A DNA stretch of 64,000 nt from [Clostridium] colinum (lineage in GTDB: Bacteria; Bacillota; Clostridia; Lachnospirales; CAG-274). Shown here piece after piece: positions 6,364 through 64,000 of this stretch. The notes under the pieces were generated by a model. That model ran no database searches. It was not told the origin of the DNA and was given only the letters and a program-made list of their open reading frames with translations. The first letter of the stretch is position 1. Each line of letters starts with the position of its first letter. The position numbers were made by a program, and so were the translations under genes. The stretch lies in contig NZ_OW712331.1 of the NCBI RefSeq assembly GCF_940677205.1, positions 1,240,001 to 1,304,000 on the forward strand, written 5' to 3'.

Positions 6364-6376
6364 GAGTGTGATTATC

Positions 6377-6805
6377 TTGAGAGAATTAATAAATAAACTA
6401 TGTAAAAAATATTATACCACAAACCCAATAGAACTAGCTAAATGTTTAAATATAAATGTAATATTTGAAGAACTAGGTACTATTAATGGATACTATAACA
6501 CTGCATTTAGACAAAAATTTATACATATTAATTCTAACTTAGAAGAACATAAGCAAAAATTTACTATTGCTCACGAACTTGGGCACGCAATATTACACCC
6601 AAAAGCTAACACACCATTTCTTCGAGAAAATACCCTATTTTCAATAGATAAACTAGAAGTTGAGGCTAATTTATTCGCTGTTAATTTATTAATATCTGAC
6701 GAAGATTTAAAAGAATATCAAGATTTTACCATAAATCAATTATCGTCTATTTTTGGAGTACACCAAAAATTAATTGAATTAAGATTAAAATCTAACCTAC
6801 CATAA
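6377..6805 (+). CDS. ImmA/IrrE-family metallopeptidase (anti-repressor protease)
   Basis: 142 residues from a TTG at 6377, chosen because TAGGAGTG lies 10 bases upstream, right after the repressor stop; upstream parts of the frame overlap repressor codons. It contains FTIAHELGHAILHP, the HExxH zinc motif of the ImmA/IrrE (DUF955) family, with a downstream Glu in EVEANLFAVNLL as likely third ligand. The family cleaves the cognate repressor to induce the element. Gene order repressor-ImmA is conserved in Gram-positive prophages and ICEs. Confidence 0.9.
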   Translation: MRELINKLCKKYYTTNPIELAKCLNINVIFEELGTINGYYNTAFRQKFIHINSNLEEHKQKFTIAHELGHAILHPKANTPFLRENTLFSIDKLEVEANLFAVNLLISDEDLKEYQDFTINQLSSIFGVHQKLIELRLKSNLP

Positions 6806-7021
6806 TCAATTACAGTAGATTTTTATTGATAAAATTTATATTTAAATGTAAAATTTTTTTGAAATTAATTAATGTAAAAAATAATAATGGGTTATATCTA
6901 AATAGTATCTCTACTTATAAATTATATTAATTTTTAATAATTATAAAATTTTTTGTAAAATTGTTGATTTTTGAGTTTTTTTGATATAAAATCTAACTAA
7001 ATATTTTAGATGAGGTGTATT

Positions 7022-8329
7022 ATGTCAATTTTAGATATTTTCAAAATAAAAGAATTTAAAGAAAAGATTAACAACTTAGAAAATGAATTAAAAGACATAA
7101 AAGAAAAAATAACTCCTGAGATACAGCAAACTATTGATTTTAAAAAAATAATAAATGAACTTAACTATGAAATAGAATCAAAAAATGATGAGCTAAATAA
7201 AGTTAATAGCAAAATAGAAAATTTAAATGAAATTATTTATCAAAAAGAAAAAGAACTTGTGATAACAGATGAAAAAATACTTATGCAAGAATTTAATCTA
7301 TATGAACCAAGATTTGACTTTTGCAATAGTGATTTATATAAATCCGAAATAGATGATATTCGTTCACAACAAAAAAATTTAATAAAAAATGACTTTGCTG
7401 TAAATAGTGCTACTGATTGGACTGTTAATGGAAGTAAAACTGAAGGTAAAAAAATGATAAAAGATATGAAAAAATTATTACTTCGTGCATTTAACTCGGA
7501 ATGTGATGAGATAGTATCAAAAGTTAAATATAACAATTTTGACCAAAGTTTAAAAAGATTACAAAAAAGTAAAGAAACTATCTCAAAATTAGGAAAGATT
7601 ATGAATATAAATATATCTGCTAGCTATTATAATTTAAAAGTTGATGAACTATCACTAGCTTTAGAGTATAAACAAATAAAACAAAAAGAAAAAGAAGAAG
7701 AGAGAGAAAGAAGAGAAGCTTTAAGAGAAGCTGAAAGAGTTGAAAAAGAAATTAAAGAGAAAAGATTAGCAATTGAAAAAGAACAAAAACAATATCAAAA
7801 AGAATTAGATAGAGTTAAACAAAAGTTAGAAAAATGTAATTCTGAAGAAGAAAAAATTATATTACAAGAAAAGCTAAATGAATTAAATGTAAATTTAAAA
7901 GAAATTGAACAAATTTTTGAAGATTTAGATTATAGAGAAGCAAACAAAAGAGCTGGGTATGTTTATATTATAAGTAATATAGGAGCTTTTGGAGAAAACA
8001 TATTTAAAATAGGGTTAACAAGAAGATTAGAGCCTCTAGAAAGAATAACTGAATTAAGTGGAGCTTCTGTTCCGTTTAAATTCGATTTACACGCGCTTAT
8101 TTTTTCGGAAGATGCTCCTGCTTTAGAAAGTGCATTACATAAAGCATTTAATAAAGATAGAGTTAATCTTATTAATAATAGAAAAGAATTTTTTAGAACA
8201 ACTCTTGAAGAAATAGAAAAAGTTGTTAAACAAAACTATGATAAAACAGTAGAATTTAATCGAATAGCTGATGCACAAGAATACAGAGAAAGCATACAAA
8301 TTTTAAAAAATATTGAAAATGAAGCATAG
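7022..8329 (+). CDS. Coiled-coil protein with C-terminal T5orf172/Mug113 GIY-YIG-like domain (DUF4041 type)
   Basis: 435 residues; start at the ATG at 7022, with GATGAGGTG 6 bases upstream. Layout: an N-terminal coiled coil (about 5-90), a DUF4041-like central region (about 95-220, containing SATDWTVNGSKTEGKKMIKD), a long charged coiled coil (about 220-310), then the T5orf172 domain (about 315-415): AGYVYIISNIGAFGENIFKI, GLTRRLEPLERITEL, and EFFRTTLEEIEKVV. This domain is GIY-YIG nuclease-like. Position between the repressor genes and integrase fits lysogenic cargo. A role in excluding other phages is possible but only inferred. Confidence 0.8.
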   Translation: MSILDIFKIKEFKEKINNLENELKDIKEKITPEIQQTIDFKKIINELNYEIESKNDELNKVNSKIENLNEIIYQKEKELVITDEKILMQEFNLYEPRFDFCNSDLYKSEIDDIRSQQKNLIKNDFAVNSATDWTVNGSKTEGKKMIKDMKKLLLRAFNSECDEIVSKVKYNNFDQSLKRLQKSKETISKLGKIMNINISASYYNLKVDELSLALEYKQIKQKEKEEERERREALREAERVEKEIKEKRLAIEKEQKQYQKELDRVKQKLEKCNSEEEKIILQEKLNELNVNLKEIEQIFEDLDYREANKRAGYVYIISNIGAFGENIFKIGLTRRLEPLERITELSGASVPFKFDLHALIFSEDAPALESALHKAFNKDRVNLINNRKEFFRTTLEEIEKVVKQNYDKTVEFNRIADAQEYRESIQILKNIENEA

Positions 8330-8344
8330 GTTTAACCCTATGCT
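8323..8344. terminator. Hairpin between convergent genes
   Basis: AGCATAGG (8323-8330) pairs with CCTATGCT (8337-8344), overlapping the stop of the rightward gene. It lacks a strong T run, so it is a weak terminator at best. Confidence 0.4.
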
Positions 8345-8354
8345 TACATTAATT

Positions 8355-8747
8355 TTAATAATACAAATCTGGTAATTTTAATATCCATACTAAATCCACT
8401 ATAAAAAATATTATATATATTCCTATAATAAGAAATAACGCTTCACCTAATGTAGCTATTAGTATAACTGGTGTAACTAAATTACTTATTATATAAAATA
8501 CCCCCATAAAATAATCACCTTTATAAATATGATGCAAACCTATCCATCCAAAAAATATCCATAGTACAAAAGTAACCCATTTCTTTTTTATTCTTTTATA
8601 ACTAAATTCTTGTGTATTAAGTATTTTAGTATTTGATAAATTTGTATCATTGTCTAATATATCACTATCTTCTTTTATACTTAAACCACAATTAACACAA
8701 AATTTATCATCATCATTAACTCGTGTACCACATTGTCTACAAAACAT
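8355..8747 (-). CDS. Zinc-ribbon TM2-domain membrane protein
   Basis: 130 residues. The N terminus is a zinc ribbon (CRQCGTRVNDDDKFCVNCG, about residues 3-21), followed by a disordered linker and a TM2 domain (about 55-130) with two to three membrane helices and the typical FFGWIGLHHIYKGDYFMGV. TM2 proteins are of uncertain function and common in prophages and hosts. It stands alone, leftward, between two rightward lysogenic genes. Confidence 0.82.
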   Translation of the reverse strand: MFCRQCGTRVNDDDKFCVNCGLSIKEDSDILDNDTNLSNTKILNTQEFSYKRIKKKWVTFVLWIFFGWIGLHHIYKGDYFMGVFYIISNLVTPVILIATLGEALFLIIGIYIIFFIVDLVWILKLPDLYY

Positions 8748-8824
8748 AATTATCCCACCTTTCTGTTAAAATATACCATATTATATACAAAAAGTAAATA
8801 TTTTGTTGTTTATATATTAAATTG

Positions 8825-8853
8825 TTGACAGTATAATATTTTAAGTTTATAAT
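8825..8853 (+). promoter_or_regulatory. Consensus promoter of the antitoxin RNA
   Basis: TTGACA (8825-8830), exactly 17 bases, TATAAT (8848-8853): a perfect sigma-A promoter with no open frame behind it, which points to an RNA product starting near 8860. Confidence 0.85.
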
Positions 8854-8859
8854 AATAAT

Positions 8860-8990
8860 ATACTTAACCACTAAAAAAGGCTACTGCGTCAACAGTAACC
8901 TTTGATTAATACTTTAGTGGTTAGCTTTAACAAATTTGATATATTAAAGGTTTGCCACTTATATAATCATATAAGTGGTTTATTTTTTGT
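8860..8990 (+). ncRNA. Putative antisense RNA antitoxin (type I system)
   Basis: The start is inferred from the consensus promoter at 8825-8853. The end is at a perfect 10-bp hairpin (8955-8964 with 8969-8978) followed by a T-rich run. The roughly 130-base RNA is complementary to the last codons and 3' tail of the toxin mRNA on the opposite strand. This is the convergent arrangement of txpA/RatA and bsrG/SR4 in Bacillus. Expected effect: block or degrade the toxin mRNA. Confidence 0.7.
8873..8900 (-). terminator. Intrinsic terminator of the toxin mRNA
   Basis: On the minus strand GGTTACTG (complement of 8893-8900) pairs with CAGTAGCC (complement of 8879-8886), all paired if one G-U is allowed, followed by six T residues. 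Toxin transcripts reading through the first hairpin would end here, near 8873. Confidence 0.75.
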
Positions 8991-51075: not shown

Positions 51076-51813
51076 CTATAATATTGATAAAAAAAGTATA
51101 GATGTTAAAGAACTTGTTGTTATTATAAATCCACATAAATCTCCAGATATACCTTTTAAATCTTTTATACAAAAAGTAGCAAAAATAAAACAACTTAATA
51201 TATTTATTAAAATTATTTTTAATATGCTAAAATAATATGATAAAAATAAAAACATTAATAAAATTATTAAAATAGTATAAAAATGCTTATTATTTAAATC
51301 TTTTTTAAAATTAGCTATAAACCCTTCTTTAGATATAGGATTAACTTTTATAATAAATAAGCTAGTAATACCTCTTGAAAACAAAGGTATAAATATTAAA
51401 GAGGTTATATTTTTATCTTGTTTTAATATTTCATAAATACATACATAGTATATAACATTTATTATTAATAATCCTATTACTGCAAATGCCCCAACACAAG
51501 AATCTTTTAAAATTTTATATTTTTTTTCTAAACTAGCTCTTGAAAATATAGCATCACAAGTATCCATATACCCATCTATATGAATAAATCCACTTAAAAA
51601 TAATGGTATTAAACATACTAATGCTGACTTTATAGTTATTGGTATATTAAAATTACTTATTATATTTATACCCAAAAACCATATTAATCCAATAACTAAT
51701 CCTACAAACTGTAAATAAACTATAATAAAAGGAAAATTTTTTTCTTCCCATTTTACTTGAGGCATAGGTATTGTTGTATACATAGAAAAAGCCATAAAAA
51801 GTCCATTTATCAT
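51076..51813 (-). CDS. cobS: Cobalamin synthase (adenosylcobinamide-GDP ribazoletransferase)
   Basis: 245 residues, multi-pass membrane protein. The N terminus (MAFSMYTTIPMP) and the conserved SGFIHIDGYMDTCDAIFSRA (about 74-93) with KILKDSCVGAFAVIGL are typical for CobS. It joins adenosylcobinamide-GDP and alpha-ribazole. Its start overlaps the stop of cobU by 4 bases. Confidence 0.94.
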   Translation of the reverse strand: MINGLFMAFSMYTTIPMPQVKWEEKNFPFIIVYLQFVGLVIGLIWFLGINIISNFNIPITIKSALVCLIPLFLSGFIHIDGYMDTCDAIFSRASLEKKYKILKDSCVGAFAVIGLLIINVIYYVCIYEILKQDKNITSLIFIPLFSRGITSLFIIKVNPISKEGFIANFKKDLNNKHFYTILIILLMFLFLSYYFSILKIILINILSCFIFATFCIKDLKGISGDLCGFIITTSSLTSILFLSIL

Positions 51814-52361
51814 AATTTTATTTCATCAAACCTTTCTTTGCCTTTATGCACTATAATGTTGTTGTAGCATACTTCTATTAAAACATCTGCATTTTTAACA
51901 CAAGATTTATCTATAAAAGCTAGCCCTTTTTTATATGTGTTAGTTATTTCATCATATTTTATACTGTCAGAAAAAATATAGTCAGAAACTAATACCACAT
52001 TTCTCATTTTACTTATTATATATAATAAATCCTCACTAACCTTTTTATAAGCCTCTAACATTAAATTATCTTTAAACATCTCATTAGCTAAAAGTGCTGT
52101 AACGCTATCTATTAAAAATGTTCCTTTTAAATCACATAAATTTTCTATATTTTTAATATCTTTTTGTATTTCTATTGTTTTAAAATTTAAATGTAATCTA
52201 TTTTTTTTATGTTTTTCTATTCTTATTAAGTCTTCTTCATCTGTTGGACACATAGTTGCTATATAATAAAACGGTTTATCTTCTTCTTTTAAAGAAAATG
52301 CTATTTTTTCTGCTATACTAGATTTTCCATTTTTACAACCACCAGAAACATATACAATCAT
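51810..52361 (-). CDS. cobU: Adenosylcobinamide kinase / guanylyltransferase
   Basis: 183 residues. P-loop YVSGGCKNGKSSIAEKIAF (about 4-22), FLIDSVTALLANEMF and VVLVSDYIFSDSIKYDE are CobU family motifs. It phosphorylates adenosylcobinamide and transfers GMP to it. It sits between cobT and cobS. Confidence 0.93.
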   Translation of the reverse strand: MIVYVSGGCKNGKSSIAEKIAFSLKEEDKPFYYIATMCPTDEEDLIRIEKHKKNRLHLNFKTIEIQKDIKNIENLCDLKGTFLIDSVTALLANEMFKDNLMLEAYKKVSEDLLYIISKMRNVVLVSDYIFSDSIKYDEITNTYKKGLAFIDKSCVKNADVLIEVCYNNIIVHKGKERFDEIKL

Positions 52362-52369
52362 AAAAGCAC

Positions 52370-53437
52370 CTACTTTAAATTATTTAAATAATCGGTATCT
52401 ATTTTAGCTTCATCAAAAGTTGCCATATTTTTAAACATAGCAACAGATGCTTCCATTATAGAAAACATTAAAGGGCAACCACTACCTTCGCCCAATCTCA
52501 TTTTTAAATCTAAATAAGATGGTAGTCCTATTTCTTTTTGTGCTAAAATATATCCTTTTTCCATAGACTTATGAGATAAAAACATATATCCTTTAATATG
52601 TTCATTTAGCTTAATAGCACATAAGCCTGCTACTATTGCTATAAATCCATCTACAACAACAGGAATTTTATTGTATGCACACCCTATATATACTCCTATC
52701 ATTGTAGCTATATCAAATCCACCAACTTTTGTTATAATATCTATAACATCATTTTGATTAGGTTTATGTTTTTTTATAGCTTTTTTTATTATGTCTACTT
52801 TTTTATTGTAAGCATCTTTAGTAAGACCAGCGCCAACACCTACAACACTTTCTATTTCATCTTCTTTTAAGCCTAATATAGACGCTAAAATAGCACTACT
52901 TGTTGTCGTATTGCCTATTCCCATTTCTCCAGTACCTATTATGCTATATCCATCTTTTTTAGCTTGGTTAACAAGTTCAATACCTATATTAATAGCTTTT
53001 ATAGCTTCATCTTTTGTCATAGCCTCTTGTTCAAAAAAATTATTAGTAGATTTTCGTATTTTTTTATTTATAAGTTTAGGATGATTTATATCACATTTTA
53101 TGCCTACATCACAAACTAAAACATCTGTATTAAATTGTTTAGCTATGACAGATACACCTGTTTTACCTTCTAAAATATTTATTGTTTGTATAGCTGTTAC
53201 CTCTTGTGGTGTAGATGCTATACCTTCTTCAAATATACCATTATCACTTGCTAAAACTATTATAGCCTTTTTGTCTATATTTATGTTTAAACTATTATAT
53301 ATACTACAAAGTTTTGCAGATATTTCTTCAAGTTCTCCTAAACTACCTATAGGCTTTGCCAAAAAATCTATATATTTTTTAGCTTCATTATAAATATTTT
53401 CATTTATTTTTTCTATATTTTTTAAATAATACTCCAT
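52370..53437 (-). CDS. cobT: Nicotinate-nucleotide dimethylbenzimidazole phosphoribosyltransferase
   Basis: 355 residues. FLAKPIGSLGELEEISAKLC (about 25-44), ASDNGIFEEGIASTPQEVTA and GTGEMGIGNTTTSSAILAS are CobT hallmarks; the C terminus keeps RLGEGSGCPL with the catalytic Glu. It makes alpha-ribazole phosphate from a lower-ligand base. First gene after the riboswitch; its ATG lies about 10 bases after the terminator T run. Confidence 0.95.
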   Translation of the reverse strand: MEYYLKNIEKINENIYNEAKKYIDFLAKPIGSLGELEEISAKLCSIYNSLNINIDKKAIIVLASDNGIFEEGIASTPQEVTAIQTINILEGKTGVSVIAKQFNTDVLVCDVGIKCDINHPKLINKKIRKSTNNFFEQEAMTKDEAIKAINIGIELVNQAKKDGYSIIGTGEMGIGNTTTSSAILASILGLKEDEIESVVGVGAGLTKDAYNKKVDIIKKAIKKHKPNQNDVIDIITKVGGFDIATMIGVYIGCAYNKIPVVVDGFIAIVAGLCAIKLNEHIKGYMFLSHKSMEKGYILAQKEIGLPSYLDLKMRLGEGSGCPLMFSIMEASVAMFKNMATFDEAKIDTDYLNNLK

Positions 53438-53447
53438 ATAAACACCT

Positions 53448-53473
53448 AAAAAAGCCTTAGTATAACCTAAGAC
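53448..53473 (-). terminator. Intrinsic terminator, expression platform of the B12 riboswitch
   Basis: On the minus strand GTCTTAG (complement of 53467-53473) pairs with CTAAGGC (complement of 53454-53460) with one G-U, followed by six T residues, right before cobT. It is likely formed when the riboswitch binds cobalamin. Confidence 0.7.
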
Positions 53474-53627
53474 TTATAACTTTCTATTTTATTATGTATA
53501 GCATAAAATAGTATTATTAAATAATTTTAATATATAATATTAATAGCTATGTAAATAGATAAGTTATAAACCTCAATAACCTGTGAGTTTTAAAACTAAA
53601 ACTTGCATAATATAGTTATATTATTTT

Positions 53628-53797
53628 TTGGCAGGTATTCCGACTAAGACATCAACATTTATTTAGCCTTCCCAGTTTAACCCAGTGGCATATATAAATA
53701 AACTCCTTCATCACGGCAGCAAGGTCTGTTTAAGATTTTAACTCAATTCCCTATTATCGTTAAAACGCACCAGCAAGTCTATCTTAATATTTAATTA
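53628..53797 (-). promoter_or_regulatory. Cobalamin riboswitch upstream of cobT
   Basis: Reading the minus strand from about 53797, the conserved blocks appear in order: GGTGCG near the 5' end, GGGAA, TTGCTGCC, then GCCACTGGG, GGGAAGGC and finally AGTCGGAATACCTGCC (complement of 53631-53646). The last three are the B12 box and the closing strand of the cobalamin aptamer. High cobalamin should shut off the cobT-to-CobQ operon. Confidence 0.93.
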
Positions 53798-53803
53798 TTA
53801 TAA

Positions 53804-53832
53804 ATTATACACACAATATAAATTATTGTCAA
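53804..53832 (-). promoter_or_regulatory. Promoter of the cobalamin operon
   Basis: TTGACA (complement of 53827-53832), 17 bases, TATAAT (complement of 53804-53809), placing transcription start just before the riboswitch. Confidence 0.8.
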
Positions 53833-53854
53833 CACATACAATTACAGTACAATA

Positions 53855-53883
53855 AATAAGATAAGAATATATCTTACCTTATT
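53855..53883 (-). terminator. Terminator-like hairpin after the antiporter gene
   Basis: AATAAGATAAGA (53855-53866) pairs with TCTTACCTTATT (53872-53883), one pair a G-U or mismatch depending on strand. It is placed between the antiporter stop and the cob promoter. Confidence 0.6.
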
Positions 53884-53897
53884 TATTATATAAAAAA

Positions 53898-55448
53898 TTA
53901 ATGATTTTTATTCAATTCTTTTTCTGTTTTTAAATATAAAACAAATAAAATTATAAGCATACTACCTAATGCAAATATCCAAGTTAATAAAAGGTTAGCC
54001 GTTATACCTGCTACAATATATCCTATTACACAACTTATAGCCACAACAAATGTATATGGTATTTGTGTTGCAACGTGGCTTATATGATTACATCTAGCTC
54101 CTGTAGATGATAATATGGTTGTATCTGATATAGGGCTACAATGGTCCCCAAAAACAGACCCTGCTAAAACAGCTCCTAATGATGTTATTGTAAGTTGTGG
54201 TGCTGTATTTTCACATACAACAGCTATTATAGGTATTAATATACCAAATGTACCCCAAGATGTACCCATAGAAAAGGCAAGTAGCCCAGCAACACAAAAT
54301 GCTACAACTGGTATTAACATTCCTGCCACACTAGACCCTTCTACAAGCCCACCTACATATCCACCTGTATTTAATAAATCTCTACAAACACCACTTATTG
54401 TCCAGGCTAATATAAGAATTATATAAGCAGATACCATAGACTTAACACCTGTAGCTATGCCAGACATAAACTCTTTAAAAGTTAATACTTTTCTTGGGAT
54501 AAATAATAAAAATGTAACTATTAATGTAAAAAATCCACTCATAGCAAGTGCTGGCCCTGCATTAGTGTTACCAAAACTTTCAGATAAAGTCATACCACCA
54601 TTAAAATAACCACCAACATATAACATTGATAAAATAGATGAAACTATTAATACTAATATAGGTATAACTAAATCAAACACCTTACCTTTTTCTGATATAG
54701 ATATTTTACTAAGCTCATCATCTTCATCTAGTGCCTCAAAGTCATCATTTTTTTTGCCTTCTAAGGCTAAATATTCACATTTTGCCATTTTACCAAATTC
54801 TAATTTTGTTAAACATACGATTAAAACCATAATCATTGTTAAAATAGCATATAAGTTGTAAGGTATAGTTCTAACAAAATCTTGTATACCATTTAAACCA
54901 CTATCTGTCATTTGAGATATAACAGATGCTGCCCAAGAAGAGACTGGAGCTATTATACATATAGGTGCGGCTGTTGCATCAATAATGTATGCAAGTTTTT
55001 CACGAGATATTTTATATTTATCTGTAACAGGACGCATAACTGTACCTACTGTTAAACAGTTAAAATAGTCATCAATAAATATAATAACACCTAATACCGC
55101 CGTTGCTAACTTAGCCCCTTTTCTAGATTTTATTTTTTTTACCGCCCATTCACCATAAGCCTTAGAGCCACCAGCTTTTGTTATAATAACAACTATAGCC
55201 CCAAGAATTCCTAAAAATATTATAATAGAGCTGTTTTCTGAAAGTTTTTCTGCCATAAGGTTCATAGTAACTTCAATAGTTCTAGTACCAACTTGTATAA
55301 CTCCATCTGTATCATATATAGAATATATTAATGTTCCAGATAAAATACCTACAATAAGCGAAGATATAACTTCCTTTGTTTTAAGCGCTAATATAATAGC
55401 AATGATAGGTGGGAGCAAAGATAAAATACCCACCGTGTGTATTTCCAT
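53898..55448 (-). CDS. NhaC-family sodium/proton antiporter
   Basis: 516 residues, about 11-12 membrane helices. Family features: IDDYFNCLTVGTVMRPVTDK (about 125-144), DATAAPICIIAPVSSWAAS (about 155-173), AFSMGTSWGTFGILIPI, VFGDHCSPISDTTILSSTGA. NhaC-type proteins exchange Na+ for protons, some malate or lactate. Standing alone, it has no cobalamin link. Leader 55449-55620 is AT-rich without clear signals. Confidence 0.92.
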   Translation of the reverse strand: MEIHTVGILSLLPPIIAIILALKTKEVISSLIVGILSGTLIYSIYDTDGVIQVGTRTIEVTMNLMAEKLSENSSIIIFLGILGAIVVIITKAGGSKAYGEWAVKKIKSRKGAKLATAVLGVIIFIDDYFNCLTVGTVMRPVTDKYKISREKLAYIIDATAAPICIIAPVSSWAASVISQMTDSGLNGIQDFVRTIPYNLYAILTMIMVLIVCLTKLEFGKMAKCEYLALEGKKNDDFEALDEDDELSKISISEKGKVFDLVIPILVLIVSSILSMLYVGGYFNGGMTLSESFGNTNAGPALAMSGFFTLIVTFLLFIPRKVLTFKEFMSGIATGVKSMVSAYIILILAWTISGVCRDLLNTGGYVGGLVEGSSVAGMLIPVVAFCVAGLLAFSMGTSWGTFGILIPIIAVVCENTAPQLTITSLGAVLAGSVFGDHCSPISDTTILSSTGARCNHISHVATQIPYTFVVAISCVIGYIVAGITANLLLTWIFALGSMLIILFVLYLKTEKELNKNH

Positions 55449-55627
55449 TAAAATCTCTCCTTTGTATATATTTTGGGCTCTTTTTCAAAATTGAGGTAAA
55501 TTTTAAATTTTAATAAAATTATAACATCTCAATATTTATTGAACCATTATTTTTATAATTTTATCACAAAATATTTATATATGCAAATTTTTAAATATTT
55601 ATTAATAATTTTATTAAAATAATATAA

Positions 55628-55664
55628 CAAAAACTAGTATTTAATTATAAAATACTAGTTTTTG
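55628..55664 (-). terminator. Intrinsic terminator of the chaperone operon
   Basis: CAAAAACTAGTATTT (55628-55642) and AAATACTAGTTTTTG (55650-55664) are perfect 15-bp complements with A/T runs at both ends, 22 bases past the TPR gene. Confidence 0.85.
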
Positions 55665-55685
55665 TATAAATTTGTATATTTAAAA

Positions 55686-56858
55686 CTATTTTACATTGTT
55701 ATTAGTATACAAATTTTGCCTATATTCTTCACTAGATTTTTGTACTATTTTAGATAATATACTTTGATATTCTTTAAATTTACCTTGAGCCTTTTTTATA
55801 AGAGATTGCTCAAACAATACTCTTTCGTTATCTGGTGCTAAAGTATATGCTTTAGCTATAGCTCCTTCTGCTTTTAAAAGATTATATTCTTGCCTGTAAT
55901 ATTTAGCTAACTTAAGCCACAATATATAATTATTTCTATTATAAAAATTTGCTTTTTCTATACATTTTATAGCTTTAGGTATATTATTAAGATGTTCGTA
56001 TATATCACTTTTAGCTATTAAAATATCAACATTTTTATCTTCTATAATTTCTAAGCACTTCGTAGCTCTATCATATAAATTAAGCTTTACATAACAATTA
56101 GCAATTTTTAATAATATATCATCTGATTTATTAAACAAATGTGCTTGTATAAATAAACTTTTAGCTTTATCAAATTCTTTCTTTTTAAAATATAATTCGC
56201 CTAAATAATAATATTTTTTATACACAATATCATCATTTAATTTGTTTATATTTTCCTTAGCATCGTCAAAATCTTCTTTTTCTATTAATAATTCTATTAG
56301 GTTAAATAATATGTCTAAATTATTGTTAGATAAATTTATAGCCTTTTTTAAATATGTTAATGCTAAATCATATTGTTTAAGTCTTATATAGCAAATTCCT
56401 ATATTATTATATAAAATATAATTTGAAACATCAAAGTCTAATGCATCTTTATAAGACTTTATAGCTTTTTCAAACATATTTTCTTTAAAAAATCTATCTC
56501 CTTTAATCTTTTTTCGCTCTACTTGTCCTCTTTTTTCCCAATTAAAAAGTTCTAGCGAGATACTTTCTATTTCTTCTAATGTATAAAAATCATTAATAGT
56601 TAAAAATTCTATACTTCTTTGATAAAAACTTTCTTGTTTTTTTATTTCAATCAATTTGTTAGCTATATCAACATTTAAAAGGTCATTATATACCCAGTTT
56701 ATAAACTTATCTTCAAAAAAATCTGTACTATACTCTTTAAAATTTTTATAAAAAAGATATATAGCCTCTTCTATCGAATAAATATTTATACCATTTGTAA
56801 GTTTATATGGAGATATATTTTTATCTTCTGCCAAACTTTGCTTTAAGCTAGCAACCAT
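55686..56858 (-). CDS. TPR-repeat protein, last gene of the Hsp70 operon
   Basis: 390 residues. N-terminal part (about 1-110) with DnaJ/ARC6-like helical content but no HPD motif; then about seven tetratricopeptide repeats (about 115-385), for example KIKGDRFFKENMFEKAIKSY, NIGICYIRLKQYDLALTYLK, YYLGELYFKKKEFDKAKSLF. Such proteins act as adaptors for Hsp70 partners, binding tails or clients. It lies 13 bases after the Hsp70-vWA gene with AAGGTGG before its ATG. Confidence 0.85.
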   Translation of the reverse strand: MVASLKQSLAEDKNISPYKLTNGINIYSIEEAIYLFYKNFKEYSTDFFEDKFINWVYNDLLNVDIANKLIEIKKQESFYQRSIEFLTINDFYTLEEIESISLELFNWEKRGQVERKKIKGDRFFKENMFEKAIKSYKDALDFDVSNYILYNNIGICYIRLKQYDLALTYLKKAINLSNNNLDILFNLIELLIEKEDFDDAKENINKLNDDIVYKKYYYLGELYFKKKEFDKAKSLFIQAHLFNKSDDILLKIANCYVKLNLYDRATKCLEIIEDKNVDILIAKSDIYEHLNNIPKAIKCIEKANFYNRNNYILWLKLAKYYRQEYNLLKAEGAIAKAYTLAPDNERVLFEQSLIKKAQGKFKEYQSILSKIVQKSSEEYRQNLYTNNNVK

Positions 56859-56871
56859 ATAACCACCTTCT

Positions 56872-58962
56872 TTATAATCTTATTAGTTCTGTTATACTTC
56901 TAGCTATATTATCTAATATATCATAAAACTTATCTTTTAAGTCATAATATTTTCCATTTGGAGCAGTAACTGGGTCGAAAGATTTTAGGCTTTCTTTATC
57001 ACGCCTTGCTACAACATATGTTGTAACTTTTGCCTGTTTTAGCATATTACAAATATCTTCAACACTTTTACCACTATTAGTAGGAACATGAGGAGGAGCA
57101 TCTGTTATTAATATAAATATGTTTTGACTATCTGGCTCTAAATCAGAATTTTGTAAAAGTTGAACACCTGTTTCTAAGGCATCAAGTGATGATTCAGGTA
57201 TATCTCCACCATAAGTTCTTGGTATATTTTTTACTTGACGTTTAAATTTTTCTATATCATTTGTAAAATTATATACACTAGGTTTTTCTTTTTCATTTAA
57301 ATCTCCAAATCCTATAAGCCCAAGTTTAAATTTAGCCCCTCGTTCACTTAATATATTTGAAAATTCAATTGCTCTGTCTTTAACACCATTTATATAGCTA
57401 TCCATACTACCTGTTGTATCTATTAAAAATGTAATATTTACATTTTCTTTACCTACAAGCTTAACATCTTCTTTTTCAGGTGGTAAAGAAAATTTTGTTC
57501 TATCAAATTCTTTTATTTTTATTTTACCTGTATTTATATCTTTTAAATATACTTCAAAAAGGTTATTTTCATCAATAGCATATGTTATTTCTATTTGAGA
57601 TTCACCTTTAAGATTGTCCAAAATAGCTGTACCTATATATTTTTTATTTTCTTCATTTCCTTGTTCCCATTGATAAACATCAACTGCTACTGTGCTAGCA
57701 CCATTAGCATTAGAAAATTTAGAATCTGAAAATTTACTTGGTATAGGGCTACCCATAGGTATAATAGGTATAAGTCCTCTTTCCATTGTATCTATATTTA
57801 TTATAGCCTCTGTTCCAAAAATTTGTCTTGTTATTTGCCCTACTTTAACATTTCTATTAGGTAAATGTATAAGATAGTTATAAATAGCTGCTCCCATAGC
57901 AACACTTTTAGCTGGGTCTGTTGCTCTATAAGGCTCTTTTACAAATCCGGCTACCATTCTTTTAACCATTGGTATTAGTGTAGACCCGCCTACTAATATA
58001 ACTTTTGATATTTCATCTGGCTCTTTATTTGCTCTTTTTAATGCTTCTTCTAAAATTTCTCGGCTTCTTTCTACATATTTTCTAATAAGTGCCTCAAAGT
58101 CTTCTCTTGTTATATCAATAGATAAATTTTTAGGTACACCATCAATAATTACAAGTGGATTTATTTTTATTGACACTTTTCCTGTACCAGATAATTTTTT
58201 CTTAGTTTGCTCTGCTTCTTGTTTTAATTTTTGCATAACTGTTTTTCTGTCTAAATCATCTAAGCTATCTATATCTATGCCACTATCTTGCATAAATTTT
58301 TCTTTCATAAACTTTATAAGCTCTGCATCAAAATCATCTCCACCAAGGTTCATATCCCCAACGTCTGAAAGCTCTTGAAAAATTTCTTCCCCATTTTCAT
58401 CAATGCTAACTTTTAAAACACAAGCATCAAAAGTTCCACCGCCAAAATCATATACAAGTAAAGTTTGTGCATAGCCTTGTTTATATCCATATTCAATAGC
58501 TGCAGCCAATGGTTCAGATAAAAGATAAACATTTTTAAATCCTGCTAATATACCCGCTTGTTTTGTAGCAAAAATTTGTCTATCGTTAAAATATGCTGGG
58601 TGTGTTATAACAACTTCATCAAAAGTTTCTCCAGATTGCTCTTCTGCAGATTTTTTTAGTTTTTTTAATATTTCTGCACTTACTTGCTCTGGAGTTTTTT
58701 CTTCTCCATTTATAATAACTTTTTCATCTGTTCCTATTTTTCTTTTTATAGATATAACAGTACTTTCTGGGTAAATAATAGATGCTAATTTAGCCTCAGA
58801 CCCTACTACTATTTCTTCCCCTTCTAATGTTGGATAATTAACAACAGAAGGCAAAACTTCGTCTGTACCATCTATTTTTACTACTTCAATTTTATCATCT
58901 CTATCTCTATATATTGTTGCAACGGAGTTTGTTGTACCTAAATCTATTCCTAAATATGCCAT
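56872..58962 (-). CDS. Hsp70 (DnaK-like) fused to a von Willebrand factor A domain
   Basis: 696 residues. Hsp70 ATPase with GIDLGTTNSVATIYRD (about 5-20), the phosphate-2 loop VYDFGGGTFDACVL (about 170-183) and VILVGGSTLIPMVKRM (about 321-336). Substrate-binding beta domain at about 380-500. Instead of the usual alpha-helical lid there is a vWA domain (about 507-696). Its MIDAS reads DTTGS (515-519, usually DxSxS), with a second aspartate in LITDAPP (about 618-624). The metal site suggests binding to a partner or client in place of a lid. GGAGG precedes the ATG; the upstream Hsp70 ends 3 bases earlier. Confidence 0.9.
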   Translation of the reverse strand: MAYLGIDLGTTNSVATIYRDRDDKIEVVKIDGTDEVLPSVVNYPTLEGEEIVVGSEAKLASIIYPESTVISIKRKIGTDEKVIINGEEKTPEQVSAEILKKLKKSAEEQSGETFDEVVITHPAYFNDRQIFATKQAGILAGFKNVYLLSEPLAAAIEYGYKQGYAQTLLVYDFGGGTFDACVLKVSIDENGEEIFQELSDVGDMNLGGDDFDAELIKFMKEKFMQDSGIDIDSLDDLDRKTVMQKLKQEAEQTKKKLSGTGKVSIKINPLVIIDGVPKNLSIDITREDFEALIRKYVERSREILEEALKRANKEPDEISKVILVGGSTLIPMVKRMVAGFVKEPYRATDPAKSVAMGAAIYNYLIHLPNRNVKVGQITRQIFGTEAIINIDTMERGLIPIIPMGSPIPSKFSDSKFSNANGASTVAVDVYQWEQGNEENKKYIGTAILDNLKGESQIEITYAIDENNLFEVYLKDINTGKIKIKEFDRTKFSLPPEKEDVKLVGKENVNITFLIDTTGSMDSYINGVKDRAIEFSNILSERGAKFKLGLIGFGDLNEKEKPSVYNFTNDIEKFKRQVKNIPRTYGGDIPESSLDALETGVQLLQNSDLEPDSQNIFILITDAPPHVPTNSGKSVEDICNMLKQAKVTTYVVARRDKESLKSFDPVTAPNGKYYDLKDKFYDILDNIARSITELIRL

Positions 58963-58965
58963 TTT

Positions 58966-60600
58966 TTAGCCCTCCAAAATTGTTTTATTAAATCTGCTTG
59001 GGTCAAAACTTTCACTATATCCAGAAGGTTCATATTCTGTACCATATCCCATATCGGTAACAGACCCTTTAACAAGGCCACCTTCTTCTTCTACTTGCAA
59101 TGTTATGTTAAGTCTTGTTTTACCACTAGGTCTTTCTGGTAAATCTTTTATTAAAACTTCGCCTATTAGTTTGCATTTTTCAATAGTATCTTCTTTATTT
59201 ATTCTTTCCATTATTTTTAAATTAAAGTTTGTCATATCCTCTTTTTCAGTACCAGAAAGAGTAAATATTTGTTCTTTTTTAGCTAATGCATATGGTGTTC
59301 CTCTTCTAATCATTGTGTAAAAAGATTTAACACCATTATTTTCTATTTCAAGCCCTATATCGTGAGGTACTGTAACCTCAAATTCTATAGACATTTTTTC
59401 ACTTTCTATATCTGGAGATGATAAAAGTCCCATTTTCATAGCTGCATAATATGTTGCACCAAGAGATATATCTAAAGCTGGTCTTTCAGATGTGTAAATT
59501 TTACTTTCATTATTAAAAATAGCTATAAGCATATCTTTTACCCACGGCATCTGAGAAGACCCACCTTCTAATAAAACTCTATCTATATCATCTGGAGTTA
59601 ATGCACCTGTATAAACTTCTCTTAAAGCCTTTAAAACAAGCTTTCTAGTTTCTTCTATAAAAGGGTTAATTATTTCTTCTAAATCATCTCTTGTCATCTG
59701 TTCTACAAAAGGTGGTATACAAAATGTAAAAGGTATTCTAAAAGTTTTTACTCCAGAAAGACGCTCTTTAGACTCTCTAGCACGGCAAATAAGCTCTACC
59801 ATATTTTCTGGGCTTAAATCTTCTCTTTTTTGATTAGCTTTTTCTTCTATAAAATTATAGCATCTATTTAAAATATACTCGTCCACATTATCTCCACCGT
59901 GATAGGCTTTTCCACCTTCACTTATAACCTGTAATTTTATATGCTTATCATCTTTTTCTAAAACATTAAATAATGTGATATCTAATGTACCACCACCAAA
60001 GTCAAAAACCATTATTTTTTCATCTTGATTTAATTGATGTCTAAAGTTATATGCAAGTGCCGCTGCTTTTGGCTCTTCTATAAGACAAATAAGCTTGTCC
60101 GATATTCCAGCTATTTCACAAGCTTTCATAGTTGCTTTTTTTGCGGCATCGTCAAAATCATAAGGAACAGAAACAACAAGTCCTACTATCTCTGCTTTAG
60201 GATTTAAACTTTTACAATGTTCTATAAGCTCTGTTAATATTTTAGCAGATATTTCTTCTGGTAAGTATTTTTTTCCATCTAGCTCAACTGTTTCATTAGT
60301 CCCCATTTTTCTTTTTATAGAACGTATAGTAGTTTCTGGATATATTTTCATTGAGCGAAAAGCTTCTTCACCTATAACCCACTCGCCTTCTCCTTCGTCA
60401 TCTTTTCTATATTGAACAACAGAAGGCATAGGTATTTTTCCAAATCCATTGCTTATATCTATTGGCTCTGGTTTTTCATTTATCATATCCCAATAGCTTA
60501 TTATAGAATTAGTTGTCCCAAGGTCTATACCTAAAATATAATAATCTTCCAATAAGTTTTTATTTTCTTCTATTTGCTTTTTATATTCTGTCCATTTCAT
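58966..60600 (-). CDS. Hsp70-family protein, ATPase and substrate-binding beta domain
   Basis: 544 residues from the ATG at 60600 (GAGGTG upstream). A short helical leader (1-20) precedes GIDLGTTNSIISYWD (about 24-38). The phosphate-2 loop FDFGGGTLDITLFN (about 199-212) and VLLEGGSSQMPWVKD are intact, so ATP hydrolysis is likely. The SBD-beta region follows (about 400-525), then a short tail; there is no long helical lid or acidic EEVD. It resembles HscA/HscC-type specialised Hsp70s. Confidence 0.9.
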   Translation of the reverse strand: MKWTEYKKQIEENKNLLEDYYILGIDLGTTNSIISYWDMINEKPEPIDISNGFGKIPMPSVVQYRKDDEGEGEWVIGEEAFRSMKIYPETTIRSIKRKMGTNETVELDGKKYLPEEISAKILTELIEHCKSLNPKAEIVGLVVSVPYDFDDAAKKATMKACEIAGISDKLICLIEEPKAAALAYNFRHQLNQDEKIMVFDFGGGTLDITLFNVLEKDDKHIKLQVISEGGKAYHGGDNVDEYILNRCYNFIEEKANQKREDLSPENMVELICRARESKERLSGVKTFRIPFTFCIPPFVEQMTRDDLEEIINPFIEETRKLVLKALREVYTGALTPDDIDRVLLEGGSSQMPWVKDMLIAIFNNESKIYTSERPALDISLGATYYAAMKMGLLSSPDIESEKMSIEFEVTVPHDIGLEIENNGVKSFYTMIRRGTPYALAKKEQIFTLSGTEKEDMTNFNLKIMERINKEDTIEKCKLIGEVLIKDLPERPSGKTRLNITLQVEEEGGLVKGSVTDMGYGTEYEPSGYSESFDPSRFNKTILEG

Positions 60601-60630
60601 ATATATCACCTCTTTTATCTACTATTTGTA

Positions 60631-62121
60631 CTATATATTTATAATAAATTGTTTTTTAAACTGAGTCTTAGGTCGTATATCACCAAATCCAAAATCTTCT
60701 ATATTAAAAATCATTTGTTTATTACTTTTAAACTCTACATACATTAAAAGTCTAATTGTTTTAACATCACTATTATCAAAATCTGAATAATCATTTAAAT
60801 TTAATTTTATATTTTCTATAACCTTAAAATTTTCGTTTTCTTGCAAAGCAATATTAATATCTATATTTTTATCATTAGTTAAACAAAATACTTTTTTATC
60901 AAATTTTTGCCAAATAAAACTATTTTTATAGACAAAAGGTTCAAATTTTACACTATCTAATTTTTTTATAAATATACCTATATTTGACTTTATTTGTTCT
61001 TCATCTTCTATATACATTTTATCTTTTGGTAAAACACCAAGCTCTTGACAAGCTGTTATGCAAGCTCCGTCTGATATAAATCTTTTTGCTTTTGTCTTAA
61101 AACTTTTTTCTAAATTAAACCTAGATTTTATAAACTTATGTATAAAATCTATCTCTATTCCACCACCTGTTAATATAATGTTTTTTATATCATTTTCTTT
61201 AATCTCTATATTTTGAAATAAGTCATTAAAAAATGTATTCATTTCTTTTTCAAAAAAAGAGATTATATCAAAAATTTCTTGCTTTGTTATTATCTTTTGA
61301 AATGGTGGATAAAAAAAGTTATAATATAGCTTTATATCCGACAAGCTTTGCCTTTGAAAAATAATATCAAATTGTTGGTATACAAAAGAATCTAAACTAT
61401 TTTTCTCATATTCTGTTAAATCTATCTTACCTGTTTCTTCTAAAAATTTTTTTGTTATTAAATTTTTTGTTATATTAAATAATCTTTGTTGTCCTATTTT
61501 TTCATTAAAATATGTTTTTACACATTTTATTTTGCCTTCTTCTTGTATTTTATAAATAGAAGCTCTAAGTTGCCTATTACTATAATCAACTATTAATATT
61601 TTATCTCCTATAATATCATTTTCATAAAAATAGCTTTTTAAAATACATTCTTTATCATTTGTAATTTTTAATAATAAATGGTCTATATTAGCAAGCTTAA
61701 AAGCTTCTTTTACATCATCATAATTAGCATAGGAAGATATAGATAAAACAATTCCTTCTATATTAGCATTAGGATTAATATTTTTTATATTTTCTATTAA
61801 AAATAATATAAATTTACTTAAAGCTAAAGTTAAACTTATGTTTTTATCTTTAACAGTATAAGTTAAACCTTTTCCAAGATTATCTACTATATTATCTATT
61901 ATTATTTCATTGGCAAATCCTTTATTTAATATAGCATATTCTCCAAAAATCCAATCTCCAGTGTCTATATTATAAGAAACAACTGTTGGCACACTAGCTT
62001 TTCCATATCCTCCGCTAACATCAACAACATCTATATCCATTTGGTTAAAGTCAAAATAAGATATAGTTGAGGTTAGGTTACCTAAATCTATTCCTATAAT
62101 AAATTTATTTTCATTAATCAT
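60631..62121 (-). CDS. Degenerate Hsp70-like protein
   Basis: 496 residues. The N-terminal GIDLGNLTSTISYF (about 10-23) and IILTGGGIEIDFIHKFI keep the Hsp70 fold. The phosphate-2 loop has become VDYSNRQLRAS (about 178-188), where Hsp70s have DxGGGTxD. The GGG and catalytic context are lost, so ATP turnover is probably reduced or absent. The C-terminal part (about 350-496) is a divergent beta domain. It may be a pseudo-chaperone that pairs with the active Hsp70s next to it. AGTAGGGG precedes the ATG. Confidence 0.85.
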   Translation of the reverse strand: MINENKFIIGIDLGNLTSTISYFDFNQMDIDVVDVSGGYGKASVPTVVSYNIDTGDWIFGEYAILNKGFANEIIIDNIVDNLGKGLTYTVKDKNISLTLALSKFILFLIENIKNINPNANIEGIVLSISSYANYDDVKEAFKLANIDHLLLKITNDKECILKSYFYENDIIGDKILIVDYSNRQLRASIYKIQEEGKIKCVKTYFNEKIGQQRLFNITKNLITKKFLEETGKIDLTEYEKNSLDSFVYQQFDIIFQRQSLSDIKLYYNFFYPPFQKIITKQEIFDIISFFEKEMNTFFNDLFQNIEIKENDIKNIILTGGGIEIDFIHKFIKSRFNLEKSFKTKAKRFISDGACITACQELGVLPKDKMYIEDEEQIKSNIGIFIKKLDSVKFEPFVYKNSFIWQKFDKKVFCLTNDKNIDINIALQENENFKVIENIKLNLNDYSDFDNSDVKTIRLLMYVEFKSNKQMIFNIEDFGFGDIRPKTQFKKQFIINI

Positions 62122-62128
62122 AAAACCC

Positions 62129-63826
62129 CTACTTTGCTGCTATAATGGTAGCCCTTTTTATAATTCCTTTATCTTTTTCCTTATATCCATAATTTACAAC
62201 TTTTATTATTTGACCTTTAATAAAATCTTCATTTTTTTCGGCTAATAAAACTTCGTGTTCTTTTGCATTAAACATATCGTGTGGATTTGGTTTTATAAGT
62301 AAAATATTATTTTGTGTCAAAATGTCTTCTATATCCATCTCAATATTATCTATATATTTAGTAAAATCTTTTATTTTTTCATCTTCACTATCTCTAAGCC
62401 TTACAACAGAATAATACATTATTTCTTGAAATGTGCTTATTTCAAATAAAATTGTATTTTTTATAAAATCATCTATCTTTTTTATGTAAAGGCTAAAAGT
62501 TTTTTCTAAATTACATAACATAGGCTCAATATTTATATGATTTTTTATATTTTCCATATTAAAATCTATTTTTAATGTATTATATATGGCATTAAAATCA
62601 TATTCTATATCATAATTTTTAAAAATTTTTAACTCTTCATTTATTTTTATATACATTTTATCTTTATCTAAAAATATTTCGTCTTCTTTTTCTTTTATAT
62701 TAATAGATTTAATATTTATACTTTCATATATTCCATCTATAATATTATATACATTATTTTTTTCATAAAATGACTTATTTTGCTCTATATATTGACAAAT
62801 CACATCAAATTTATTTCTAATATTTTGTGAAAAATTTAAAGATTTATCTATATTATTTTTAAATAAATTTATATTATCTTCTTCTTTTAATATAGTTTTT
62901 TCTTTTAATTCGGCTAGATATTTTTCAAATATTTTAAAAGCTTTTTCTTTAAATTTATCTTCGGGATTTTTAATATCTTTAAAAATCCCTATAATAAATT
63001 TTTCTATTTTTTTATTGTCTATATCAAAATCTATATTAATATTTGTATCTATTGATTTAATCTTTTTATTAAGCTCATTAAAGCTTTTGCTTGTTTGTTG
63101 ATAAGATTCTATTATAGGATTTAGTAAATTTTCTATATTAATTTTTTCATCATCATTCTCACAAAAGTCTTCTAAAGCCTTTATTTGAAATTTTATTATA
63201 GAAGTTAAAATTTCAATTTCTTCTTCTAAAACTTCCTTAAAATATTTTACTTGTTTTCTATTTTCTATATCATTAATAGAATTAAAGCAACATATCAGAT
63301 TTGTTTTATAATTAGATAATATATTTTCTATAATAGTGGTTATAAAATGTTGTTTAATATTTTTTAAATCTATATTTTCAAAACTATTATCCGATAAAAT
63401 ATCTAGATTTTTATAAATATTATCTACATATTTTGTTGTTACATTTTTCTTTTCTGTATAAATAGGATTTATATCCAAATTTTTATTATCAGAAAAAAAG
63501 CTAACTTGACTTTTTAAAACAGAAACTATGCCAGATAAATTTTTTAATAATTCATTATTAAATTTAAAATTCATATTTTCTATGTTATTTAAAAAAGTTA
63601 TATAATTATCAATAATTGTTTTATAAATGTTAAAAATCTCCTCATCAAATAATGCTAAGCTTTCATTATTTGATATATGATTCATAAATATAGATAAAAT
63701 GAGCCTTTTTAATTGCTTCTTACTAGATATAAACTTTTCTTTAAGCATACAAATATACTGTTTTTTAAAGCAATCTTGCTCCATAAAAATTTTTTCAAAT
63801 TCCATTTCTATGGTAGATTTACACAT
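62129..63826 (-). CDS. Long helical protein with GrpE-like C-terminal domain
   Basis: 565 residues. The first roughly 510 are Asn/Lys/Glu-rich helices without membrane segments. The final 55 (about 510-565) read HDMFNAKEHEVLLAEKN, FIKGQIIKVVNYGYKEKDKG, IIKRATIIAA. This matches the beta head of GrpE (FDP..HEAV..., GTI..V...GY...DRVIRPA.V.VA). So it may be a dedicated nucleotide-exchange factor fused to an elongated stalk, about three times GrpE length. GGGAGGAG precedes the ATG at 63826; the gene follows a fourth Hsp70 by 25 bases and precedes the degenerate Hsp70 by 7. Confidence 0.75.
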   Translation of the reverse strand: MCKSTIEMEFEKIFMEQDCFKKQYICMLKEKFISSKKQLKRLILSIFMNHISNNESLALFDEEIFNIYKTIIDNYITFLNNIENMNFKFNNELLKNLSGIVSVLKSQVSFFSDNKNLDINPIYTEKKNVTTKYVDNIYKNLDILSDNSFENIDLKNIKQHFITTIIENILSNYKTNLICCFNSINDIENRKQVKYFKEVLEEEIEILTSIIKFQIKALEDFCENDDEKINIENLLNPIIESYQQTSKSFNELNKKIKSIDTNINIDFDIDNKKIEKFIIGIFKDIKNPEDKFKEKAFKIFEKYLAELKEKTILKEEDNINLFKNNIDKSLNFSQNIRNKFDVICQYIEQNKSFYEKNNVYNIIDGIYESINIKSINIKEKEDEIFLDKDKMYIKINEELKIFKNYDIEYDFNAIYNTLKIDFNMENIKNHINIEPMLCNLEKTFSLYIKKIDDFIKNTILFEISTFQEIMYYSVVRLRDSEDEKIKDFTKYIDNIEMDIEDILTQNNILLIKPNPHDMFNAKEHEVLLAEKNEDFIKGQIIKVVNYGYKEKDKGIIKRATIIAAK

Positions 63827-63851
63827 AGGCTCCTCCCTTCATAATACTTTA

Positions 63852-64000
63852 TTAGTATAGCTCATCAACTGAAAGTTCTGTAACAATTCCACCATCACTC
63901 ATACTTTTAGCTGTAACTTTAAGCATATTATCTGGGCTAACACTAAATATTACTTTTACTTTTTCTTTTCCTTTTGGTCCTTGTGGTATCCCTCTTAAAG
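63852..64000 (-). CDS. Hsp70-family protein, C-terminal 49 codons (cut by right edge)
   Basis: On the minus strand the frame reads LRGIPQGPKGKEKVKVIFSV, PDNMLKVTAKSMSDGG and ends ELSVDELY then TAA (63852-63854). LRGIPxxPxGxxxxxVxFxx and LxVTAK are the end of the substrate-binding beta domain of DnaK-like proteins (DnaK: IRGIPPAPRG and LxVSAKD). It stops soon after, so it lacks the helical lid. It is a fourth Hsp70 paralogue in the operon. The N-terminal ATPase is outside the window. Confidence 0.85.
   Translation of the reverse strand, partial: LRGIPQGPKGKEKVKVIFSVSPDNMLKVTAKSMSDGGIVTELSVDELY

Follow-up and report, generated by a model that had tools for sequence, protein, structure and literature searches.

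A conserved clostridial operon encoding four Hsp70-fold proteins, a GrpE-like protein and predicted solenoid scaffolds, separate from the dnaK locus

Hsp70 systems are generally seen as one Hsp70 working with a J-protein and an exchange factor, as in the DnaK-DnaJ-GrpE (KJE) system. Here we analyse an operon at the right end of a 64,000-nucleotide stretch of [Clostridium] colinum DNA (contig NZ_OW712331.1, positions 1,240,001 to 1,304,000 of the forward strand; hereafter the window), which is part of a 2.04-Mb single-contig genome. Its eight genes are transcribed in the order DUF5717-N, DUF5717-C, HspA, GrpE-like, HspB, HspC, HspVWA and TPR. The set occurs in a group of gut-type Clostridia, in addition to their normal folding chaperone. 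With KJE the operon shares the Hsp70 ATPase and beta substrate domain and a GrpE-like exchange module. However, it has four Hsp70-fold subunits, one of them without catalytic residues, together with DUF5717 and TPR scaffolds, and it lacks the lid, a J-domain gene, the J-contact residues, the linker motif and the controlling inverted repeat of chaperone expression (CIRCE). On balance we consider it somewhat probable that the products form a dedicated Hsp70 remodelling complex, built on solenoid scaffolds, separate from DnaK, passed on vertically and independent of J-domains. If this is true, the operon would test whether Hsp70s are able to function without J-domains and in mixed assemblies of fixed composition.

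The closest published parallel is the HSP70/GrpE theme of the GAP1-N2 DO-GTPase systems (Kaur et al. 2020, PMC7159879). In the part of that paper devoted to the theme, HSP70 and GrpE, and in a subset a second truncated HSP70, occur with FNIII-DnaJ or FNIII-TPR proteins. The likeness thus covers HSP70, GrpE, a second HSP70, a TPR-containing partner and, in the wider class, VWA; against that part of the account, our operon stands apart by its four Hsp70s, the fusion of VWA to an Hsp70, DUF5717 and order-wide conservation. Pfam gave none of the eight operon products a match to a DO-GTPase or GAP1 family (neither the flanks nor other parts of the genome were tested for them). CoCoNuT (coiled-coil nuclease tandem) systems, as far as the relevant part of their description goes (PMC11090510), are restriction systems with nucleases that also include VWA genes and Hsp70-like proteins whose ATPase motifs are poor. 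Their CnuD resembles our set in its Hsp70 fold with degenerate ATPase motifs and in the VWA genes of the same operons. These systems are McrBC-like, whereas nothing in the operon matches a nuclease or McrB/C, and of its four Hsp70s three are of active type. MxDnaK2 of Myxococcus, according to the main text of a study of DnaK duplication (PMC11019930), is a second DnaK that has its own GrpE homologue in its operon and is not heat-induced. That system has one Hsp70 and one GrpE, in contrast to the four Hsp70s and scaffolds found here, and the same main text contains no vWA, Lachnospir- or Clostridi- term.

Pfam lists DUF5716 and DUF5717 as families of unknown function. HspB matches DUF5716_C and genes 1 and 2 match two DUF5717 models, which gives a lead on both families, DUF5716 as a pseudo-Hsp70 and DUF5717 as a largely TPR-like solenoid. 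Searches of the open-licence PMC literature found no paper on DUF5717, a single, unrelated one that mentions DUF5716, and no description of this gene set. The folds of the parts are known, but the searchable open-licence literature describes neither this combination of them nor the absence of J-coupling.

Gene content and the four Hsp70-fold proteins

The preliminary description had reported six tightly packed leftward genes. The packing holds, with intergenic gaps of 3-34 bases, but the number is eight. Extension to the right of base 64000 completed the cut Hsp70 gene and revealed a pair of DUF5717 genes and a promoter-like match upstream of it. Gene 1 starts at window-equivalent position 69415 (14415 in L009, the stretch read around the operon). 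The features are as follows; coordinates beyond 64000 continue the window's numbering.

68234-69415 (window-equivalent), minus strand: DUF5717-N, gene 1, 393 residues; matches the N-terminal part of Pfam DUF5717
65563-68223 (window-equivalent), minus strand: DUF5717-C, gene 2, 886 residues; matches both the N-terminal and the C-terminal part of Pfam DUF5717
63852-65528 (window-equivalent; cut at 64000, only the 3' part in the window), minus strand: HspA, gene 3, 558 residues; HSP70 match, 8e-70
62129-63826, minus strand: GrpE-like protein, gene 4, 565 residues, a long helical body and a C-terminal GrpE-like module; Pfam GrpE 9.5e-10
62141-62392, minus strand: GrpE module of gene 4, residues 479-562 (Pfam span)
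60631-62121, minus strand: HspB, gene 5, 496 residues, predicted pseudo-Hsp70 (DUF5716); DUF5716_C 6.6e-14, HSP70 4.8e-9
58966-60609, minus strand: HspC, gene 6, 547 residues, lidless, ATPase residues intact; Pfam HSP70 2.6e-58
56872-58962, minus strand: HspVWA, gene 7, 696 residues; Pfam HSP70 6e-92 (residues 4-482) and VWA_4 5e-12 (510-655)
56881-57450, minus strand: VWA domain of HspVWA, residues about 505-694, with a metal ion-dependent adhesion site (MIDAS)
55686-56858, minus strand: TPR protein, gene 8, 390 residues; Pfam TPR_2 3.7e-20; last in the conserved order

Positions and strand of the five complete genes are as first described, the sixth, cut gene is an Hsp70, and each earlier label (Hsp70, GrpE-like, degenerate Hsp70, Hsp70-vWA, TPR) is backed by a Pfam profile match. 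HSP70 (PF00012) scores are 309.3, 198.1 and 35.4 bits for the window proteins and 236.1 bits for the cut gene, over a curated cut-off of 20.6. There are exactly four Hsp70s, where at least four had been announced, and one is without catalytic residues. The J-domain, noted as missing from view within the window, was not found by Pfam in any of the eight operon proteins. Beyond the Hsp70, VWA, GrpE, TPR and DUF5716/5717 domain types, the eight proteins gave only weak or secondary Pfam matches to the same fold types.

The catalytic state of the four proteins was scored at the ATPase residues D8, K70, E171, D194 and T199 in a combined alignment with the DnaK of the genome. For the residue counts we removed rows that ran into a locus edge or failed to exceed 100 bits, and minimum lengths of 500 (HspA), 370 (HspB), 500 (HspC) and 640 (HspVWA) residues were applied. 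All five residues are intact in 38/38 unique rows of HspA, 45/45 of HspC and 46/46 of HspVWA. HspB, scored over 38 unique rows from outside the family f2 discussed below, retains K70 and T199 in none and E171 in four. On sequence grounds HspB is a pseudo-Hsp70.

The contacts with a J-protein were considered at R167, N170, T173 and D393, the DnaK residues known to touch the J-domain; they are preserved in no unique row of HspA, HspC or HspVWA. The interdomain linker gives a similar picture. A broad pattern, [VIL][VIL]L[LVIM][DN], matches 0/42 rows of HspA, 0/49 of HspC and 0/50 of HspVWA, and a narrower one, which would miss VVLLD forms, gave the same zeros. All six DnaK controls, two of them identical, carry RIINEPT and an ILLLD, VLLLD or VVLLD linker.

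The helical lid is missing from all four proteins. The median number of residues past the beta domain is 8 in HspA, 12 in HspB and 20 in HspC, in rows that include four contigs read twice; in HspVWA the roughly 203 residues at this place are its VWA domain, which occupies the position of the lid. Its metal site, of the DxSxS...T...D type, is present as a DTTGS variant: D515, T517, S519 and D621 occur in 50/50 aligned rows (four of them repeats) and T583 in 47/50. The HSP70 profile reaches position 485-492 in the three active-type proteins, whose beta substrate domains are thus retained. HspA ends in a VDxxY tail in 42/42 rows. Between the window's genome and locus L098, HspA, HspC and HspVWA are 79%, 77% and 74% identical, and DUF5717-C, the GrpE-like protein, HspB and the TPR protein 29-34%; DnaK is 70% identical between the window's genome and one member of the order. 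At L098 (14554-18534) DUF5717-N and DUF5717-C, separate genes in the window's genome, are fused in one frame of 1,326 residues.

The exchange-factor-like head first ascribed to gene 4 is upheld by its GrpE match (PF01025; 38.8 bits, cut-off 25.8), which covers only the C-terminal half of the profile (positions 82-162 of 165), and more weakly by the predicted structure. The model has a mean predicted local distance difference test (pLDDT) value of 85.6, and Foldseek places GrpEL1 at ranks 1-3 and GrpE at rank 6. Strands are modelled at 508-563, in a region of lower confidence (block means 48-73 from residue 511 on). The protein is a putative exchange factor of the active-type Hsp70s. DUF5717 is predicted to be for the most part a TPR-like solenoid. 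A conserved pattern in DUF5717-N might represent a beta-sandwich; its assignment to an FN3 or immunoglobulin fold was unconfirmed, with no FN3 match in Pfam or among solved sequences. For gene 8, called a TPR adaptor at the outset, the TPR repeats are supported and the adaptor role is putative.

The genome has a housekeeping locus elsewhere. The grpE, dnaK and dnaJ genes and hrcA (assigned by eye) lie together near 99-105 kb, with a CIRCE-like site (two mismatches) just upstream of hrcA. The operon is therefore not the sole dnaK locus of the genome, in agreement with its initial separation from that locus. Two J-domain genes came up in a genome-wide search: dnaJ, which belongs to the dnaK operon, and a second that lies in an unrelated cluster.

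Distribution, inheritance and a reduced form

DUF5717 was found in 145/295 sampled genomes of this Clostridia order, about half, and in 13/48 genomes of the window's own family. A sample of 398 genomes across the phylum gave six matches, five within the order (own genome included) and a weak one outside it, and 14 controls gave none. From the 145 positive genomes 40 loci were chosen, non-randomly, for diversity and contig position and read together with our own (41 loci). Outside f2, strand and order are preserved for the genes held in 29/29 loci, own included; all eight genes are present in 15 of these loci, at least seven in 20, and two to six in 9. In the relatives read the genes are thus not scattered singly, although some operons are split in at least two pieces. 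In G596 the DUF5717 pair lies on contig 5 (L084) and HspA-GrpE-HspB-HspC-HspVWA on contig 7, and no TPR gene was found in either stretch read; in G580 six genes are on contig 4 (L063) and HspVWA-TPR on contig 8. In G592, a congener that gave no DUF5717 match, one contig starts within the HspB region, and this absence may therefore be an assembly gap. Named records that carry the gene come from metagenome bins with the titles Defluviitaleaceae, Candidatus Epulonipiscium, Eubacteriaceae, Clostridiales, Clostridia and Firmicutes. The order is probably Lachnospirales or one like it, and f2 is probably Lachnospiraceae.

A probe made of the VWA half of HspVWA matched 76/218 genomes of the order, once each, and none of the 76 belongs to f2, whose number of genomes in this sample is not stated. 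In 348 phylum genomes, searched for presence outside the order, the whole HspVWA query matches Hsp70s everywhere; among the matches listed, none but our own passes residue 533, and the best non-self ones reach 41% identity over residues 3-482. A mobile element was considered and rejected. HspVWA is not covered to 80% by any of 72,556 plasmid or 50,697 phage records, the partial matches (289 plasmid and 41 phage records) being of Hsp70 type, and the GrpE-like protein has no match among the plasmids (phages were not searched for it). The gene set looks vertically inherited, mostly with one copy per genome. A sporulation link was likewise set aside: SpoIVA is present in 42/48 family genomes against 13/48 for DUF5717, in 13/13 carriers of DUF5717 and also in 29/35 non-carriers, and does not explain presence of the set.

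A maximum-likelihood tree of 53 rows, built with a quick search and including one identical DnaK pair, shows how the Hsp70-fold proteins are related. HspA, HspC and HspVWA form clades apart from DnaK, with supports of 100, 98 and 100, and HspB is sister to HspC with support 100.

Family f2 carries a smaller form. All 12 of its loci read hold only DUF5717, the pseudo-Hsp70 and TPR; DUF5717 is a fused protein of 1,175-1,204 residues in ten of them and is 853-897 residues long in two. The f2 DUF5716 proteins nest within HspB beside those of f144 and f160, whose loci carry the larger set. A coiled-coil gene, n1, follows TPR in f2, f144 and f160 loci, which places the three-gene and larger forms at one chromosomal site. 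From the nesting and the shared site we think that the f2 form derived through loss of the ATPases and of the GrpE-like gene. Family f2 would then amount to a natural experiment on the loss of the active subunits. At one f144 locus (L078) HspVWA (6840-8884) and TPR (5705-6731) each lie in two open frames, which is consistent with an operon in decay.

Proposed machine and rival explanations

We propose that the four Hsp70-fold subunits would assemble on the DUF5717 and TPR proteins as scaffolds. HspA, HspC and HspVWA would bind and hydrolyse ATP, and HspB may be a structural or allosteric subunit derived from an old HspC copy. The GrpE-like protein would reset the active Hsp70s by expelling ADP. 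Triggering by DnaJ is not expected, because the residues with which DnaK contacts the J-domain and the linker motif are gone; the subunits would be triggered by each other or by the client. The metal-dependent VWA domain and the open beta substrate domains would grip the client, and HspA might dock to a TPR protein through its C-terminal VDxxY tail. A fuller version, which we hold only tentatively, makes the three active Hsp70s and the pseudo-Hsp70 one J-domain-free hetero-oligomer, with VWA in place of the lid and the ATPases reset by a GrpE head that sits on a 480-residue helical body; one large family would have lost this engine, its dead Hsp70 and scaffolds being independent of it. The separate chaperone complex of the preliminary description is borne out as a separate, conserved and co-inherited gene set, and we infer that it is one physical complex.

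Some caveats apply. In HspA, position 393 is E, and an arginine stands two residues ahead of E171. The HspB rows are long branches of odd composition, which makes details of the tree unsure, and the order test is weak for the nine loci with two to six genes (contig ends, splits or losses). The nature of the client is a guess, a membrane- or envelope-associated assembly, made because a transmembrane coiled-coil gene, n2, precedes the operon in several families; n2 is not in the window's genome.

The gene n2 also bears on another reading, in which the set is an assembly or secretion chaperone system private to one surface or membrane structure. It precedes DUF5717-N on the same strand in 11/41 loci (in L092 with one small frame between) and, by profile, in L064 and L081, and of the 54 genomes that match n2 strongly 53 carry DUF5717 as well. 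Since n2 is so placed and nearly confined to DUF5717 genomes, the machine may act at the membrane in some families. On the other hand, 229/295 genomes of the order, the window's included, have no n2 match, a simple hydrophobicity scale shows a transmembrane-like stretch in none of the eight proteins, and the recurring neighbours other than n1 and n2 are an aminotransferase and genes judged by eye to be of housekeeping type. A chaperone set private to one such structure seems rather unlikely on these grounds.

The preliminary description had hinted at conflict systems, and the set could be a defence system, a GTPase-less relative of the GAP1-N2 systems. The parts lists are similar (HSP70, GrpE, a second HSP70 and a TPR-repeat protein, with VWA in the wider class; PMC7159879), the possible beta-sandwich pattern of DUF5717-N would fit, and the scaffold proteins evolve fast. 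Against this, none of the eight proteins has a domain of GTPase, GAP1, nuclease or pore type by Pfam, and DUF5717-N gave no FN3 match in Pfam or among solved sequences. Pfam presumably includes GAP1 and DO-GTPase models. The set is mostly single-copy, its order is fixed across many families and no variable effector slot was seen. PADLOC, run on five of the eight proteins, gave partial matches, to PDC-M71B for TPR (2e-10) and to PDC-M61B for two Hsp70s (6e-8 and 2e-8), with two further matches above 1e-4 and none for two proteins; shared domains of TPR and Hsp70 type can explain them. With a set that looks vertically inherited and Pfam domains limited to the types listed above, the conflict hint is unsupported, and we regard a defence role as improbable. 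Hsp70 and actin have a common ATPase fold, and secondary Pfam matches to MreB occur among the operon proteins. The lidless Hsp70s might then be actin-like filament-forming or switch ATPases, with the GrpE-like protein regulating nucleotide exchange; the absence of a lid and of J-contact residues and the conservation of a pseudo-subunit would suit this. However, the retained beta substrate domains and the GrpE-type factor are both typical of chaperones, and an actin-like role appears very improbable beside the chaperone complex that we favour.

Transcription signals and neighbouring genes

The operon is closed by a terminator-like hairpin:

55627-55665, minus strand: 16-pair stem, 7-base loop and T-rich tail

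One terminator was found against 0.0 expected (mean of 50 shuffles), which agrees with the strong terminator first placed after the TPR gene, with its 16-pair stem at 55665-55627. Upstream, a sigmaA-like promoter match (TTGATA-17-TATAAT, 11/12) ends 54 bases before gene 1; promoter-like sites in that region number 5 against a mean of 2.7 in shuffles, and the assignment of this putative promoter to the operon is suggestive only. CIRCE is absent from the 19 kb around the operon (L009), and the control stretch (L010) gave one. The combination of a sigmaA-like match and no CIRCE points to steady expression instead of induction by heat shock.

The coiled-coil gene n1 follows TPR in 8/12 f2 loci and in L078, L093 and L095; in L079 one frame lies between n1 and HspVWA. 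It was found in 161/295 genomes of the order: 113 have both n1 and DUF5717, 32 DUF5717 only, 48 n1 only and 102 neither (uncorrected for relatedness). A valS-like gene (by eye) lies near n1 in 7/11 stretches read, with or without DUF5717. We therefore treat n1 as a chromosomal neighbour and not as a member of the system. The window's genome has an n1 copy at L141 (7577-8941), with no valS-like gene nearby; the family has predicted transmembrane stretches and no Pfam match above cut-off.

The cluster with the second J-protein (L134, 3524-19312; about 1,115.5-1,131.3 kb of the window's genome) contains FHA, weak PP2C, VWA and J-domain proteins. It also holds a 725-residue protein without Pfam match that we guess to be tail-sheath-like, two paralogues of 143-146 residues, of which the one scanned has a weak Hcp/TssD match (0.007), and an 876-residue protein with an Hsp70-like motif by eye and no Pfam match. 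This contractile-tail-like cluster was rejected as a general partner of the operon: the 725-residue protein is matched in only 7/48 family genomes, strongly in the window's genome and G611, as a fragment in G436 and weakly in four (E 2e-4 to 4e-4).

A divergent aminotransferase gene lies upstream of the operon. Directly downstream, at window positions 51810-55448, are cobalamin-type genes and an NhaC-like antiporter gene, the labels CobU-like, CobT-like and NhaC-like being our presumptive assignments by eye.

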